IMG/VR virus record: IMGVR_UViG_3300025133_000038
Coordinates: 1-64,000 of that record
Strand: one strand, 5' to 3'
Origin: a virus
DNA length: 64,000 nt
Shown: piece by piece, positions 1,245 to 51,552 of the stretch
Numbering within the stretch: the first letter of the stretch is position 1
Layout: every line of letters starts with the position of its first letter
The notes under the pieces: generated by a model
Database searches by the model: none
What the model saw: only the letters and a program-made list of their open reading frames with translations
What the model was told of the DNA's origin: nothing
Translations under genes and position numbers: made by a program

Positions 1245-1419
1245 GGTGCGAGATTCATAATATCTTGCTTTTTGGTCCCAGTCTCATTTTGAGACGATTC
1301 TGTAGTCTGGACATATCTCCGAACTACCAGCTCTCTGAAAATTTCAAAACTTAGAACAGTAAAAGCCACTAGGCGAGCTAATCAAAACCCTCTCTTTTGG
1401 CTTCCCCTCTTATGTGTCC

Positions 1420-5710: not shown

Positions 5711-6065
5711 GAAACATAAGCCTACTAAGAATCAAATGTCGGTCCTGCGAAGATTAGAGGCGGGAGATTTTCTATGCGCTCACTTTGGCTGTTCAATGAA
5801 TGGGTATGTTGCCTTTGTTGACTCTAATCAGAGGCTTCCGGGCGGTAGAGACACAGTACTTCACAACATTACCTTTACATCCCTAAGAGAACATGGATAC
5901 ATTGAGGAAGATTCCACATATAATTCATGGGAGGGCGATGCTCCTAAAGATACCACTTATTTTTCCAATAGGGATTCAGGAGGGCAGCATGTTGAGACAG
6001 TCCTCTACTTTAGGCTTGCTCAGGCAGGAAAGAACAAAATCATAGAAGCTACAAGGTTAATTTAA
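5703..6065 (+). CDS. Unknown 120-residue protein, possible winged helix
   Basis: Residues 9-20 (NQMSVLRRLEAG) followed by a strand-turn region and LREHGYI resemble winged-helix proteins of the marR type, so a DNA-binding role is conceivable. Not confirmed. Overlaps the next start by one base (TAATG). Confidence 0.6.
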   Translation: MSKKHKPTKNQMSVLRRLEAGDFLCAHFGCSMNGYVAFVDSNQRLPGGRDTVLHNITFTSLREHGYIEEDSTYNSWEGDAPKDTTYFSNRDSGGQHVETVLYFRLAQAGKNKIIEATRLI

Positions 6066-6280
6066 TGAAGGTACTAATTCGCTATATGGGTGATAAGGGT
6101 GCTATCGGCCAACAGGTTGCAGGTAGAACGATTGGGCGATTGCAGGGTGGATGTGCTGTAGACATTCATGGTGTTGTCTTTGCCAAGTTCGAGAGAATTA
6201 AGGTTGATGCAGGAAGAACGGGCAAATGGCAGGAGATTGAGTTTACTATTGAGGAGGAAGAAATCCATAAAAAACCATAA
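6065..6280 (+). CDS. Unknown 71-residue protein
   Basis: Small beta-rich protein (KVLIRYMGDKGAIG...), basic N-half, acidic tail. Ends just before a promoter. Function unknown. Confidence 0.65.
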   Translation: MKVLIRYMGDKGAIGQQVAGRTIGRLQGGCAVDIHGVVFAKFERIKVDAGRTGKWQEIEFTIEEEEIHKKP

Positions 6281-22850: not shown

Positions 22851-23557
22851 AGTGCCATTGCTGTGAAGGTGAATATAAGCCACAAGATAAAGATTTCGTT
22901 TATAGAGAGTGTTCGGTCTGTAGGCATAGGTTTCGCCCCTATAAAGACAGTATAGGCTTTCATACTACAGAATATAGGACTAAAACGACCTCTCATCGTG
23001 TTAAAAATGAGTTTGATGCAGACAGGAAGGTGTTGCCAGCGTTTCACGAGTCCAGGCGATGGATTTCTAAGAGTAGGGTTGACAAAGTACGAGACTTCGT
23101 ATACAATGAAGATAAGTTGCTCGACGTTGGCTCAGGAGGTGGGAGTTTTGCTAGTCATGTAGCTTTGTTGGTAGATACTGTCCATTGTTTGGACTTAGAC
23201 CCTAGCTTAACTGATGAATCGACTAGATTGGGATTCACAACGTGGAATGCGGACTTTTTGGCTGCTGATGTTGATTCTCACTACGATGTGGTGACTAATT
23301 GGCATGTTCTTGAACATACAGATGACCCGATAGAGATTTTATGGAAGGTATACAGTTTAAACCCAAGAGTATTCTTCTGTGAGGTTCCTACAAACAGGCC
23401 ACTACCAGCAGTATTTTGCGGCCATGTCCATATGTTTACTAGAATGTCTATGGAGGCTCTGTTCACTAGGGTGTTCAATGAAGTAACAGGATATTCATTC
23501 ACAATAACTGAGGGTATTCAAAAACCCGCTATAACAGCTACAGTAAAGAGACTATGA
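22847..23557 (+). CDS. Class I SAM methyltransferase with N-terminal zinc motif
   Basis: 236 residues. CHCC and CSVC (3-24) make a small zinc ribbon; LLDVGSGGGSFASH (about 89-102) is the SAM-binding motif I, and NWHVLEHTDDP (about 147-157) the typical post-motif of methyltransferase_23 types used on sugars. Probably methylates a cassette glycan. Overlaps neighbours by ATGA. Confidence 0.8.
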   Translation: MKCHCCEGEYKPQDKDFVYRECSVCRHRFRPYKDSIGFHTTEYRTKTTSHRVKNEFDADRKVLPAFHESRRWISKSRVDKVRDFVYNEDKLLDVGSGGGSFASHVALLVDTVHCLDLDPSLTDESTRLGFTTWNADFLAADVDSHYDVVTNWHVLEHTDDPIEILWKVYSLNPRVFFCEVPTNRPLPAVFCGHVHMFTRMSMEALFTRVFNEVTGYSFTITEGIQKPAITATVKRL

Positions 23558-23916
23558 GAAAAACATTCTTTATAGATATTGATGGAACCGTCCTTTATCA
23601 GGATACTCCAGAAGAACAAGAAAGATATGGTCCTGAACAAAGAATAACAGATGCCCTCCCAGGGGCCTTAGATAAACTTAAAGAGCTAGAGGCGCAAGGA
23701 CATTGCATTGTCTTTGTCTCTGCAAGAAAAGAAAGCCTTAGAGACTTGACAGTTAAACAGTTGGGAAAATGGAATTTACCATACGACCACTTAATTATGG
23801 GAATTGGACAAGGAGAGCGAGTATTGATTAACAACAGAAAAACAGGAGACAAGGAAGATAGGGCGAGAGCCTTTAACGTAAACATGAATGAGGGTTTAAC
23901 TGACCTTCTGGTGTAA
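23554..23916 (+). CDS. HAD-type phosphatase
   Basis: 120 residues. DIDGT (8-12) with the nucleophile Asp, SAR (about 56-58) as motif II and a C-terminal GDKEDRA region that would supply the metal aspartates. Short capless HAD of the KdsC/capsule-phosphatase kind, fitting dephosphorylation of the 9-phosphate nonulosonate product. Confidence 0.75.
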   Translation: MRKTFFIDIDGTVLYQDTPEEQERYGPEQRITDALPGALDKLKELEAQGHCIVFVSARKESLRDLTVKQLGKWNLPYDHLIMGIGQGERVLINNRKTGDKEDRARAFNVNMNEGLTDLLV

Positions 23917-23927
23917 AATACTTATAT

Positions 23928-24247
23928 GGGGATGAACTGGTATCGACTGACAATGAGAACAGATTATTTGCACGTAGTGGGTGATTCGAAGGGCCACTTA
24001 AAAAATCAAATCAACAACATTAACTGCAAACTTAAATGTAAGCGTAATGACAGGTGCCCTAGCTGGCACAAGCCGTTCCTTGACCGGAACAAAAACCCGT
24101 TCTTTAACCGGAACTTTCGCCCTAGCTGCGTAAGCCAAAAGCTGGACAGAGTGATGATAGTTGTCAATAACTTAAATTGACTAAACGTGTAGACGGTAAA
24201 CATAGTAATGTTGTGCAGCTACGAGGGTTCGACTCCCTCCATCTCCA
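23928..24247 (+). ncRNA. ssrA: tmRNA
   Basis: The 5' end GGGGATGAACTGGTATCGAC matches the bacterial tmRNA start (GGGGnTGAnnnTGGnTTCGAC). The 3' tRNA-like part contains GACTAAACGTGTAGA and the T-arm GAGGG-TTCGACT-CCCTC. Acceptor GGGGATG pairs with CATCTCC, discriminator A, then CT instead of CCA. A tag frame opening at GCA AAC (24026) begins ANLNVSVMTG and ends FALAA before TAA (24131-24133), the classical ssrA degron ending. At 35 codons the tag is at the long end of known tags and contains a repeated TRSLTGT/SRSLTGT. It rescues stalled ribosomes with host SmpB. An 84-codon frame across the same span is treated as spurious. Confidence 0.9.
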
Positions 24248-24303
24248 CTTATGTTTCCCTCATCTCCACTTTTGGAGAATTTGGGAATTTTTTCCACAAC
24301 CCC

Positions 24304-24341: not shown

Positions 24342-24413
24342 GGCCCATTAGTCTAGTGGTTAGGACGCTAGCTTCTCAAGCTAGAATCAGGAGTTCAATT
24401 CTCCTATGGGCTA
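24342..24413 (+). tRNA. tRNA-Glu(CTC)
   Basis: Anticodon arm CTAGC-TTCTCAA-GCTAG, D-arm GTCTAGTGGTTAGGAC typical of Glu, T-loop TTCAATT. Acceptor GGCCCAT/ATGGGCT with G1-U72; discriminator A followed by CT. Confidence 0.9.
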
Positions 24414-24439
24414 CTAAAACACTAAGTAAGAAAGCTAAA

Positions 24440-33140: not shown

Positions 33141-33184
33141 CACTATGAGGCCCCACTGAGCCAGCCTGGCAAATCAGTGAACAT

Positions 33185-33253
33185 GGGGGTACTTCATGGG
33201 TGAGCGCTGACTTTTGCAAAGTCGGACGGCGGGTTCGATTCCCGATACCTCCA
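33185..33253 (+). tRNA. tRNA-Ala(TGC), short D-arm
   Basis: Anticodon arm TGACT-TTTGCAA-AGTCG; T-arm GCGGG-TTCGATT-CCCGA; acceptor GGGGGTA/TACCTCC; discriminator A then CT. About 3 nt shorter than normal between acceptor and anticodon stem. A CACTGA/TCAGTG hairpin precedes it. Confidence 0.8.
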
Positions 33254-33268
33254 CTAAAGGAGATTAAT

Positions 33269-50793: not shown

Positions 50794-51552
50794 ATGATTA
50801 AACAATATATATGCCCTAAATGTTATATCGAGTGGGGCAGACCAACAAAAAAACAACAAACAAATCTTTTGTGCAGGGATAAGTGTAATCCTGTTGACAA
50901 AAGTAATCCTGTTGACAAAAGTAATCCTGTTGGTAAGAAACAACAACCAAAAGTAGTAAAGAAGTTAGAGCCTATAGATGCTTTCTTCTTACATCCTGCT
51001 AAGACAGGTGGTACTGCCATAAAGGCTGCTGTAAAACAAACTAATATGAACTGGGGATGGCCTAAAAAACCAGGGTTTGCTAAGTGTTGTTCTTCGACGC
51101 ATTCCAAAACAGAAGAACTTTTTAATAGAAATATTCTTTCAAAGGATATGTTTATAGTAACCTCAATAAGAGACCCTTGGGAAAGATGTGTTTCTTATTA
51201 TTATTTTTGTCAAAGAACTAAACAGGGTGGAGCTAGAAACATGGGATTTAAACCCTTCTGTTTAAATGTCATACCTGATTATAAAAGATTTAAGCATATG
51301 TTTCCCTGTTGGGAGTATGCTCAGTATGCTGATGCTACAATAGACTTTAATCATATGCAAAGAGATTTTGATTCTGTTTGTAAAAAATTAAATAAAGAGA
51401 GTATTACTATACCAATAGTTCAAAAGATGGTTACTAATTATGAAAAACCTTATCTTGATAATTACGACCAAGAAACATTAGACTTTGTTGAGGAAATGTT
51501 TATGGATGACATTGTTCATCTAGGCTATAGGAAACCAACGCTTGAGGAATAA
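50794..51552 (+). CDS. Sulfotransferase with N-terminal zinc-ribbon and NPVDKS repeat
   Basis: 252 residues. CPKC...C-R-D-K-C (8-31) precedes three copies of NPV(D/G)K(S/K) encoded by 18-bp repeats (50888-50941). The core has HPAKTGGTA (about 67-75, PAPS loop) and SIRDPWERCVSYY (about 118-130). Noticeably more A+T-rich than its neighbours, suggesting a recent acquisition. Confidence 0.8.
   Translation: MIKQYICPKCYIEWGRPTKKQQTNLLCRDKCNPVDKSNPVDKSNPVGKKQQPKVVKKLEPIDAFFLHPAKTGGTAIKAAVKQTNMNWGWPKKPGFAKCCSSTHSKTEELFNRNILSKDMFIVTSIRDPWERCVSYYYFCQRTKQGGARNMGFKPFCLNVIPDYKRFKHMFPCWEYAQYADATIDFNHMQRDFDSVCKKLNKESITIPIVQKMVTNYEKPYLDNYDQETLDFVEEMFMDDIVHLGYRKPTLEE

Follow-up and report, generated by a model that had tools for sequence, protein, structure and literature searches.

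A phage tmRNA with a predicted 35-codon tag frame in the place of most of its pseudoknot domain

The window analysed here, a stretch of 64,000 nucleotides from a 119,350-base virus contig (119 kb), encodes a one-piece tmRNA whose distinctive feature is a long reading frame sited where most of the PK2-PK4 pseudoknot domain should be; this feature is absent from the first-pass annotation of the same DNA. We observe the gene, its open frame, a repeat inside that frame, and, among related phages, a trade of pseudoknot domain against coding sequence. The explanation we prefer, and consider likely, is that of a functional phage tmRNA that uses the SmpB of its host and carries a tag of 35 codons that has grown into the region of the pseudoknot arc.

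Results

The contig is that of a marine-type phage. It includes genes for RIIA/RIIB, thymidylate synthase, RNA ligase, ribonucleotide reductase, DnaB and DNA polymerase, and ARAGORN finds 35 tRNA genes within the window; the phage context is therefore secure. Within this context, ARAGORN calls a one-piece tmRNA (Table 1), and cmscan matches Rfam model RF00023 at positions 23928-24250 (+) over the whole length of the model, with a score of 86.7 bits (E=3.1e-32) against a gathering score of 47. Both programs place the halves of the molecule in the standard order, not with the 3' half before the 5' half as in two-piece (permuted) tmRNAs. The tRNA-like domain is complete in the sequence and in the cmscan alignment, with a 7-bp acceptor stem that includes G3-U70, a D loop, a T arm of the TTCGANT type, and no anticodon arm. 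The G3-U70 wobble pair is the alanine identity element, and marks a tRNA-like molecule for charging with alanine. The first-pass annotation had proposed a phage-encoded tmRNA here, to be judged by a search with the Rfam tmRNA model and by whether PK1 and the tRNA-like domain can form; the Rfam score and the tRNA-like domain bear the proposal out, and membership of the tmRNA family is secure as judged from sequence and predicted structure.

Table 1. Coordinates of the tmRNA gene and its elements in the window
Feature	Positions	Strand	Details	Basis
tmRNA (ssrA) gene, one-piece	23928..24248	+		ARAGORN; RF00023; sequence
Acceptor stem, 5' strand GGGGATG	23928..23934	+	pairs with CATCTCC 24240-24246; seven pairs, G3-U70	sequence, cmscan
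H2, 5' strand GCACGT	23970..23975	+	pairs with ACGTGT 24185-24190	read by hand; helix placed there by cmscan
PK1	23976..24013	+	S1 AGTGG 23976-23980 / CCACT 23994-23998	read by hand
PK1, S2	23982..23986	+	TGATT, pairs with AATCA 24009-24013 (or 24004-24008)	read by hand
Predicted tag reading frame	24026..24133	+	resume GCA 24026, stop TAA 24131-24133; 35 codons, ANLNVSVMTGALAGTSRSLTGTKTRSLTGTFALAA	position matrix, cmscan, ORF/motif test
Inner echo of the tag end (ALAG), GCCCTAGCTG	24056..24065	+	again at 24119-24128; probably wrong tag start of ARAGORN	
Repeat copy 1	24070..24090	+	within RSLTGT-coding stretch	
Repeat copy 2	24094..24114	+	3 differences from copy 1 over the 18 nt of RSLTGT codons, all synonymous	
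H5	24121..24145	+	CC(T)AGCT 24121-24127 / AGCTGG 24140-24145; stop codon in loop	sequence, folding
Reduced pseudoknot domain, ~40 nt	24146..24184	+	hairpin GTCAAT 24163-24168 / ATTGAC 24176-24181	
T arm, GAGGG TTCGACT CCCTC	24223..24239	+		sequence, cmscan
Discriminator A	24247	+	CCA not encoded; ACTT after acceptor stem	sequence

The stems of H2 and PK1 are short, and the fold downstream of the stop codon is no better than that of shuffled sequences. PK1 can be drawn by hand 12 nt before GCA 24026, the automatic pseudoknot scan having picked another pairing; the corresponding gap between PK1 and resume codon is 11 nt in both E. coli and L198, a tmRNA from a related phage whose PK1 matches that of the window but is longer. 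In a scan of the sequence round the gene, the best promoter-like match lies downstream of the tmRNA, ahead of a tRNA-Glu gene, and no terminator was found. When annotated phages were searched with BLAST for sequences related to the tmRNA, this neighbouring tRNA-Glu alone was matched. The tRNA-Glu(ctc) region, 24342-24414, is 88% identical to a stretch of Erythrobacter phage XM05, which gives a weak hint to the host range, and 79% identical to one of a 634-kb uncultured phage.

The position at which translation of the tag would resume was assessed with a position matrix built from distinct one-piece tmRNAs on viral contigs and a row for E. coli ssrA. GCA 24026 is the best site in the gene, with a score of 14.3, as against 4.5 for GCC 24056. 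It remains the best, at 12.4, after removal from the training set of two doubtful rows and of the ARAGORN call for the window itself, and the score of 24056 is 2.1 when it is left out of training. The U at -5 and the A at -4 of GCA 24026 correspond to U85/A86, which set the tag frame in E. coli (PMC2481249). The cmscan alignment sets UUAACUGCAAAC on the consensus resume region, and the head of the resulting tag, ANLNV, resembles the ANNNV and ANDNV heads of other phage tags. A resume codon in a UA context opens a frame with a hydrophobic, LAA-like tail, which runs to the stop codon with the canonical ALAA end. Matrix, spacing from the hand-drawn PK1, U85/A86 context and tag head all favour 24026, and a predicted tag of 35 codons is thus better supported than one of 25. 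The earlier description of a frame of about 35 codons ending in FALAA and a stop was accurate.

ARAGORN itself prints a tag of 25 codons from GCC 24056, ALAGTSRSLTGTKTRSLTGTFALAA. As a control, E. coli K-12 ssrA with neutral codons added to its tag was run through the program: ARAGORN was correct up to 33 codons, misplaced the start at 34-35, and reported nothing from 36 onwards. Its 25-codon call in the window is thus likely a consequence of misplacing the starts of tags of 34-35 codons, and the call was rejected on the context score together with this control. The related reading, that the tmRNA is functional and does resume at 24056, we regard as quite improbable. The codon is an alanine codon with an A at -4, in addition to being the program's choice; its matrix scores, however, are low, it would sit 42 nt from PK1 instead of the usual ~11-12, ARAGORN cannot place the starts of tags of at least 34 codons, and relatives with the same layout begin with ANNS and ANEN heads. 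The control also has a wider bearing, since ARAGORN provided the tmRNA calls of a survey of huge phages (PMC7162821) and was among the programs used for the tmRNA database (PMC11915505). Because it misplaces or misses tags of at least 34 codons, long-tag tmRNAs have probably been under-counted; the form with tags of 35-46 codons, misread or missed, lies in a blind spot of the standard gene finder.

The length of the frame alone is not significant, as 15% of dinucleotide shuffles are open this long (P = 0.15). The combination of an open frame with an [ALVMI][AVL]A-stop end is rarely obtained by chance, with P = 0.00075 in the window and P = 0.0004 and 0.00045 in two long-tag relatives. The internal repeat noticed in the first-pass annotation is real: RSLTGT is encoded twice, in copies that are 86% identical and spaced by 24 nt. 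For the second repeat, GCCCTAGCTG at 24056 and 24119, the P of any exact 10-nt repeat in shuffles is 0.007. The three differences between the RSLTGT copies are all synonymous (P ~0.03-0.04), a modest sign of selection on the peptide. The GTTCC/GGAAC and GTTCT/GGAAC hairpins attributed to the repeat can form, but they have no significance as structure: the tag frame folds no more stably than dinucleotide shuffles (z -0.08, with 92/200 shuffles equally good). The hairpins therefore add no evidence of their own and were rejected as a selected structure.

Related phage contigs were found with a DNA polymerase profile. Apart from the window phage and its near-identical record G001, the polymerase family includes five records with a tmRNA gene or one resembling it. 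Two of these have long tags: L198 (record G003, polymerase 55% identical) has a tag of 44 codons, ANNSFDVALVGSPSKKSSFRSFNGTSTAQVSVVSASSFDAALAA, and is missed by ARAGORN despite an Rfam score of 119 bits, and L333 (G033) has one of 46 codons, ANENEVSGLLSRTRALAQSYVGAFNADKVGYTYAVTENAIEAALVA, misread by ARAGORN. Two others, L331 (G032) and L332 (G041), have tags of 10 codons, AEKEILALAA and ADTSVLALAA, respectively. The fifth, the tmRNA-like locus L334 (G035), is divergent and scores below the Rfam cut-off; a short tag can be made out in it. This locus lies at ~150690-150936 (minus), beside an endonuclease VII-like ORF; its acceptor end is CCGTCC, its 5' end is altered, and its possible tag is AEYNGILACAA. 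An HAD-type phosphatase gene is found upstream of the tmRNA both in the window (23554-23916) and in G032, with 40% identity, evidence that the two loci go back to a single ancestral one. In the polymerase tree the phages of L198 and L333 are sisters with full support; a single clade that also includes the window phage is not rejected (AU p 0.54), and the tree does not establish such a clade.

The exact tag of the window occurs otherwise in G001 only, a near-identical assembly in which ~40 kb are identical bar a few sites, so that selection on the tag is not measurable between strains. Exact-pattern scans for the window tag or PK1 matched G001/L009 and L198 only, and the PK1 core had no match when bacterial genomes were scanned. 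G001 differs from the window in ~197 nt that replace a tRNA-Ala stretch at 33181-33263, and in a short overlap or duplication near 50885 (window ~50885-50932). Neither the record of the window phage nor those of six relatives contains an SmpB gene, these records being fragments whose missing part could hold it.

The three long-tag genes, with 35, 44 and 46 codons, have 115, 123 and 125 nt after the stop codon, as against 216 nt in their 10-codon relatives L331 and L332 and 208 +/- 22 nt (sd; minimum 155) in 39 other one-piece tmRNAs, thirteen with tags of at least 24 codons among them. The distance between resume codon and 3' end is 223-266 nt in the long-tag genes and 249 nt in the 10-codon relatives. 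Given this similar overall length, coding sequence appears, most simply, to have replaced ~90-100 nt of the pseudoknot domain, that is, most of the PK2-PK4 arc. The usual PK2-PK4 series does not follow the tag in the window: between H5 and H2 there are ~40 nt, with room for at most one pseudoknot, and such a leftover pseudoknot is clearest in L333. Different sequences in the window, L198 and L333 each allow an H5 whose loop holds the stop codon. A home-made pseudoknot scan carries little weight here, as most sequences, and among them the E. coli control, gave no significant result.

A different account of these lengths is that the window gene is an ordinary long-tag phage tmRNA, and that its short pseudoknot domain and long tag are unrelated quirks of the lineage, with no replacement of one by the other. 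A working 35-codon tag would fit this account too; only the domain trade is at odds with it. Across the 39 other tmRNAs, tag length and after-stop length are indeed not significantly correlated (Spearman -0.24, p 0.14), and many tags of 20-31 codons go with a full domain. We nevertheless consider it unlikely, because in the surveyed set fewer than 155 nt after the stop occur only in the three extended relatives and in L144, whose frame is doubtful, and because the total length of the extended relatives is about that of the 10-codon ones.

Several further loci were encountered. L082, 4172-4565 (-), has a tag shortened by ARAGORN; resumption at position 98 probably gives 35 codons, ANTIVAEDMMNIQTSVTKGVTPFARVERARMALAA, which begin ANTIVAEDMM and match the ANAYNTEDMM... 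tag of L113. Its after-stop domain is of full size (187 nt), and no match to the DNA polymerase of the window was found in its record, an indication that long tags have more than one origin. L144, 4503-4753 (-), is a very compact tmRNA of 248 nt (77.8 bits) inside a large tRNA cluster, with almost no space for PK1 or a pseudoknot domain and a doubtful frame of 35 codons, ANDNSLASALFS..., ending PSYTQ. L157 (minus, 5992-6071), L164 (8514-8593) and L148 (minus) are tmRNA-like genes of 77-80 nt that consist of the tRNA-like domain only; the Rfam tmRNA score is 61 bits for L157 and L164. In L011, ~1367-1386 (-), a tmRNA 5' half has a 3' acceptor motif just upstream, a permuted-looking arrangement that ARAGORN does not call.

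Discussion

In the mechanism we propose, the tmRNA would be charged with alanine and bound by host SmpB, enter ribosomes stalled on broken mRNA, and take over the nascent chain. The ribosome would switch to the tmRNA frame at GCA 24026 and add a tag of 36 residues, alanine followed by ANLNVSVMTGALAGTSRSLTGTKTRSLTGTFALAA. The stop codon would then free the ribosome, and the C-terminal LAA would pass the product to ClpXP-type proteases.

The tag frame would have grown into the pseudoknot-arc space in the lineage of the window phage. All three long tags contain an inner AL[AV], whose position (codons 11, 8 and 15) is close to that expected for the end of a short tag. In codon shuffles this pattern, which was chosen after seeing it, has P = 0.026, 0.027 and 0.14, or ~0.005 combined by Fisher's method. 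The inner AL[AV] and the two occurrences of GCCCTAGCTG, at 24056 and 24119, could be explained by loss of the stop after an older ALA-ending tag, with a later stop being used instead. A likely route would be that a tag of ~14 codons with an ALA end lost its stop, and that a small tandem duplication was added.

The same events might instead have been steps of decay: with its stop gone and its pseudoknot domain collapsed, the RNA would not work, or would do no more than titrate SmpB, and the long frame would be a remnant. The weak structure after the stop is consistent with decay, and phage tmRNA-like genes cut down to the tRNA-like domain do exist, namely in mycobacteriophage DS6A, which has that domain alone (PMC4131195), and in L157 and L164. 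In the window gene, however, the elements of the tRNA-like domain, the resume context, H5 and the hydrophobic LAA tail are all intact; three long frames, from phages whose polymerases are down to ~55% identity, are uninterrupted and have an AL[AV]A end, and the repeat copies differ at synonymous sites only. We therefore judge decay improbable.

A functional tmRNA with a lengthened tag also agrees with what is tolerated elsewhere. The number of pseudoknots varies among tmRNAs (PMC1168896), and they are interchangeable, three of the four being replaceable by single-stranded RNA (Nameki 2000 as cited in PMC4236655); rescue can thus be expected to survive the exchange. We suggest, tentatively, that the lineage swapped most of the pseudoknot arc for coding sequence, that the frame of 35-46 codons itself forms the arc round the ribosome, and that the long tag may be more than a plain degron. 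Its extra role might be, for example, that of an unstructured protease grip or a phage-specific mark.

The first-pass annotation held tmRNA genes to be known in few phages, a statement that is now outdated. The 2025 tmRNA database contains 79 unique phage tmRNA sequences (PMC11915505), tmRNAs have been reported in huge phages (PMC7162821), and two IMG/VR pattern scans returned phage tmRNAs, at least dozens among the matches listed. It had also called the tag unusually long. The 35 codons stand, but long tags are not unique: 20-31 codons are frequent among the phage tmRNAs surveyed, and the relatives reach 44 and 46. The commonest tag length is 10 residues and tags of just 2 have been reported, and the excerpted text gives no maximum (PMC11915505), so that 35-46 codons cannot be claimed as a record. 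In the literature library searched, no paper dealt with long phage tags. Such tmRNAs bear on the possible length of a rescue tag and, as natural cases with translated sequence in place of pseudoknots, on the purpose of the PK2-PK4 arc.

Comparison with known systems

The window gene shares with E. coli K-12 ssrA the tRNA-like domain with G3-U70, H2, a putative PK1 and the U85/A86 context and, in the tag part, an AN- head, H5 with the stop in its loop, and the LAA tail. It differs in the length of the tag (35 codons against 10), in the stretch that follows the stop (115 nt against 241), and in that CCA is not encoded. The tmRNA of Bacillus phage G is likewise phage-encoded and in one piece, but has a tag of 13 codons, AKLNITNNELQVA. 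One-piece tmRNAs with tags of 20-31 codons, such as L037 (GNTNFWSLVNESVNAPVTEELLAA) and L113, are also found on viral contigs and have long tags of non-canonical length; unlike the window gene, they keep ~187-261 nt after the stop. L198 and L333 belong to the same polymerase family and have the long tag, the reduced after-stop domain and the inner AL[AV] echo, L198 also having the PK1 core of the window, CGAAGGGCCACNTAAAAAATC. The remainder of their tag sequences is largely unlike that of the window, and L333 shows its pseudoknot after the stop more clearly.
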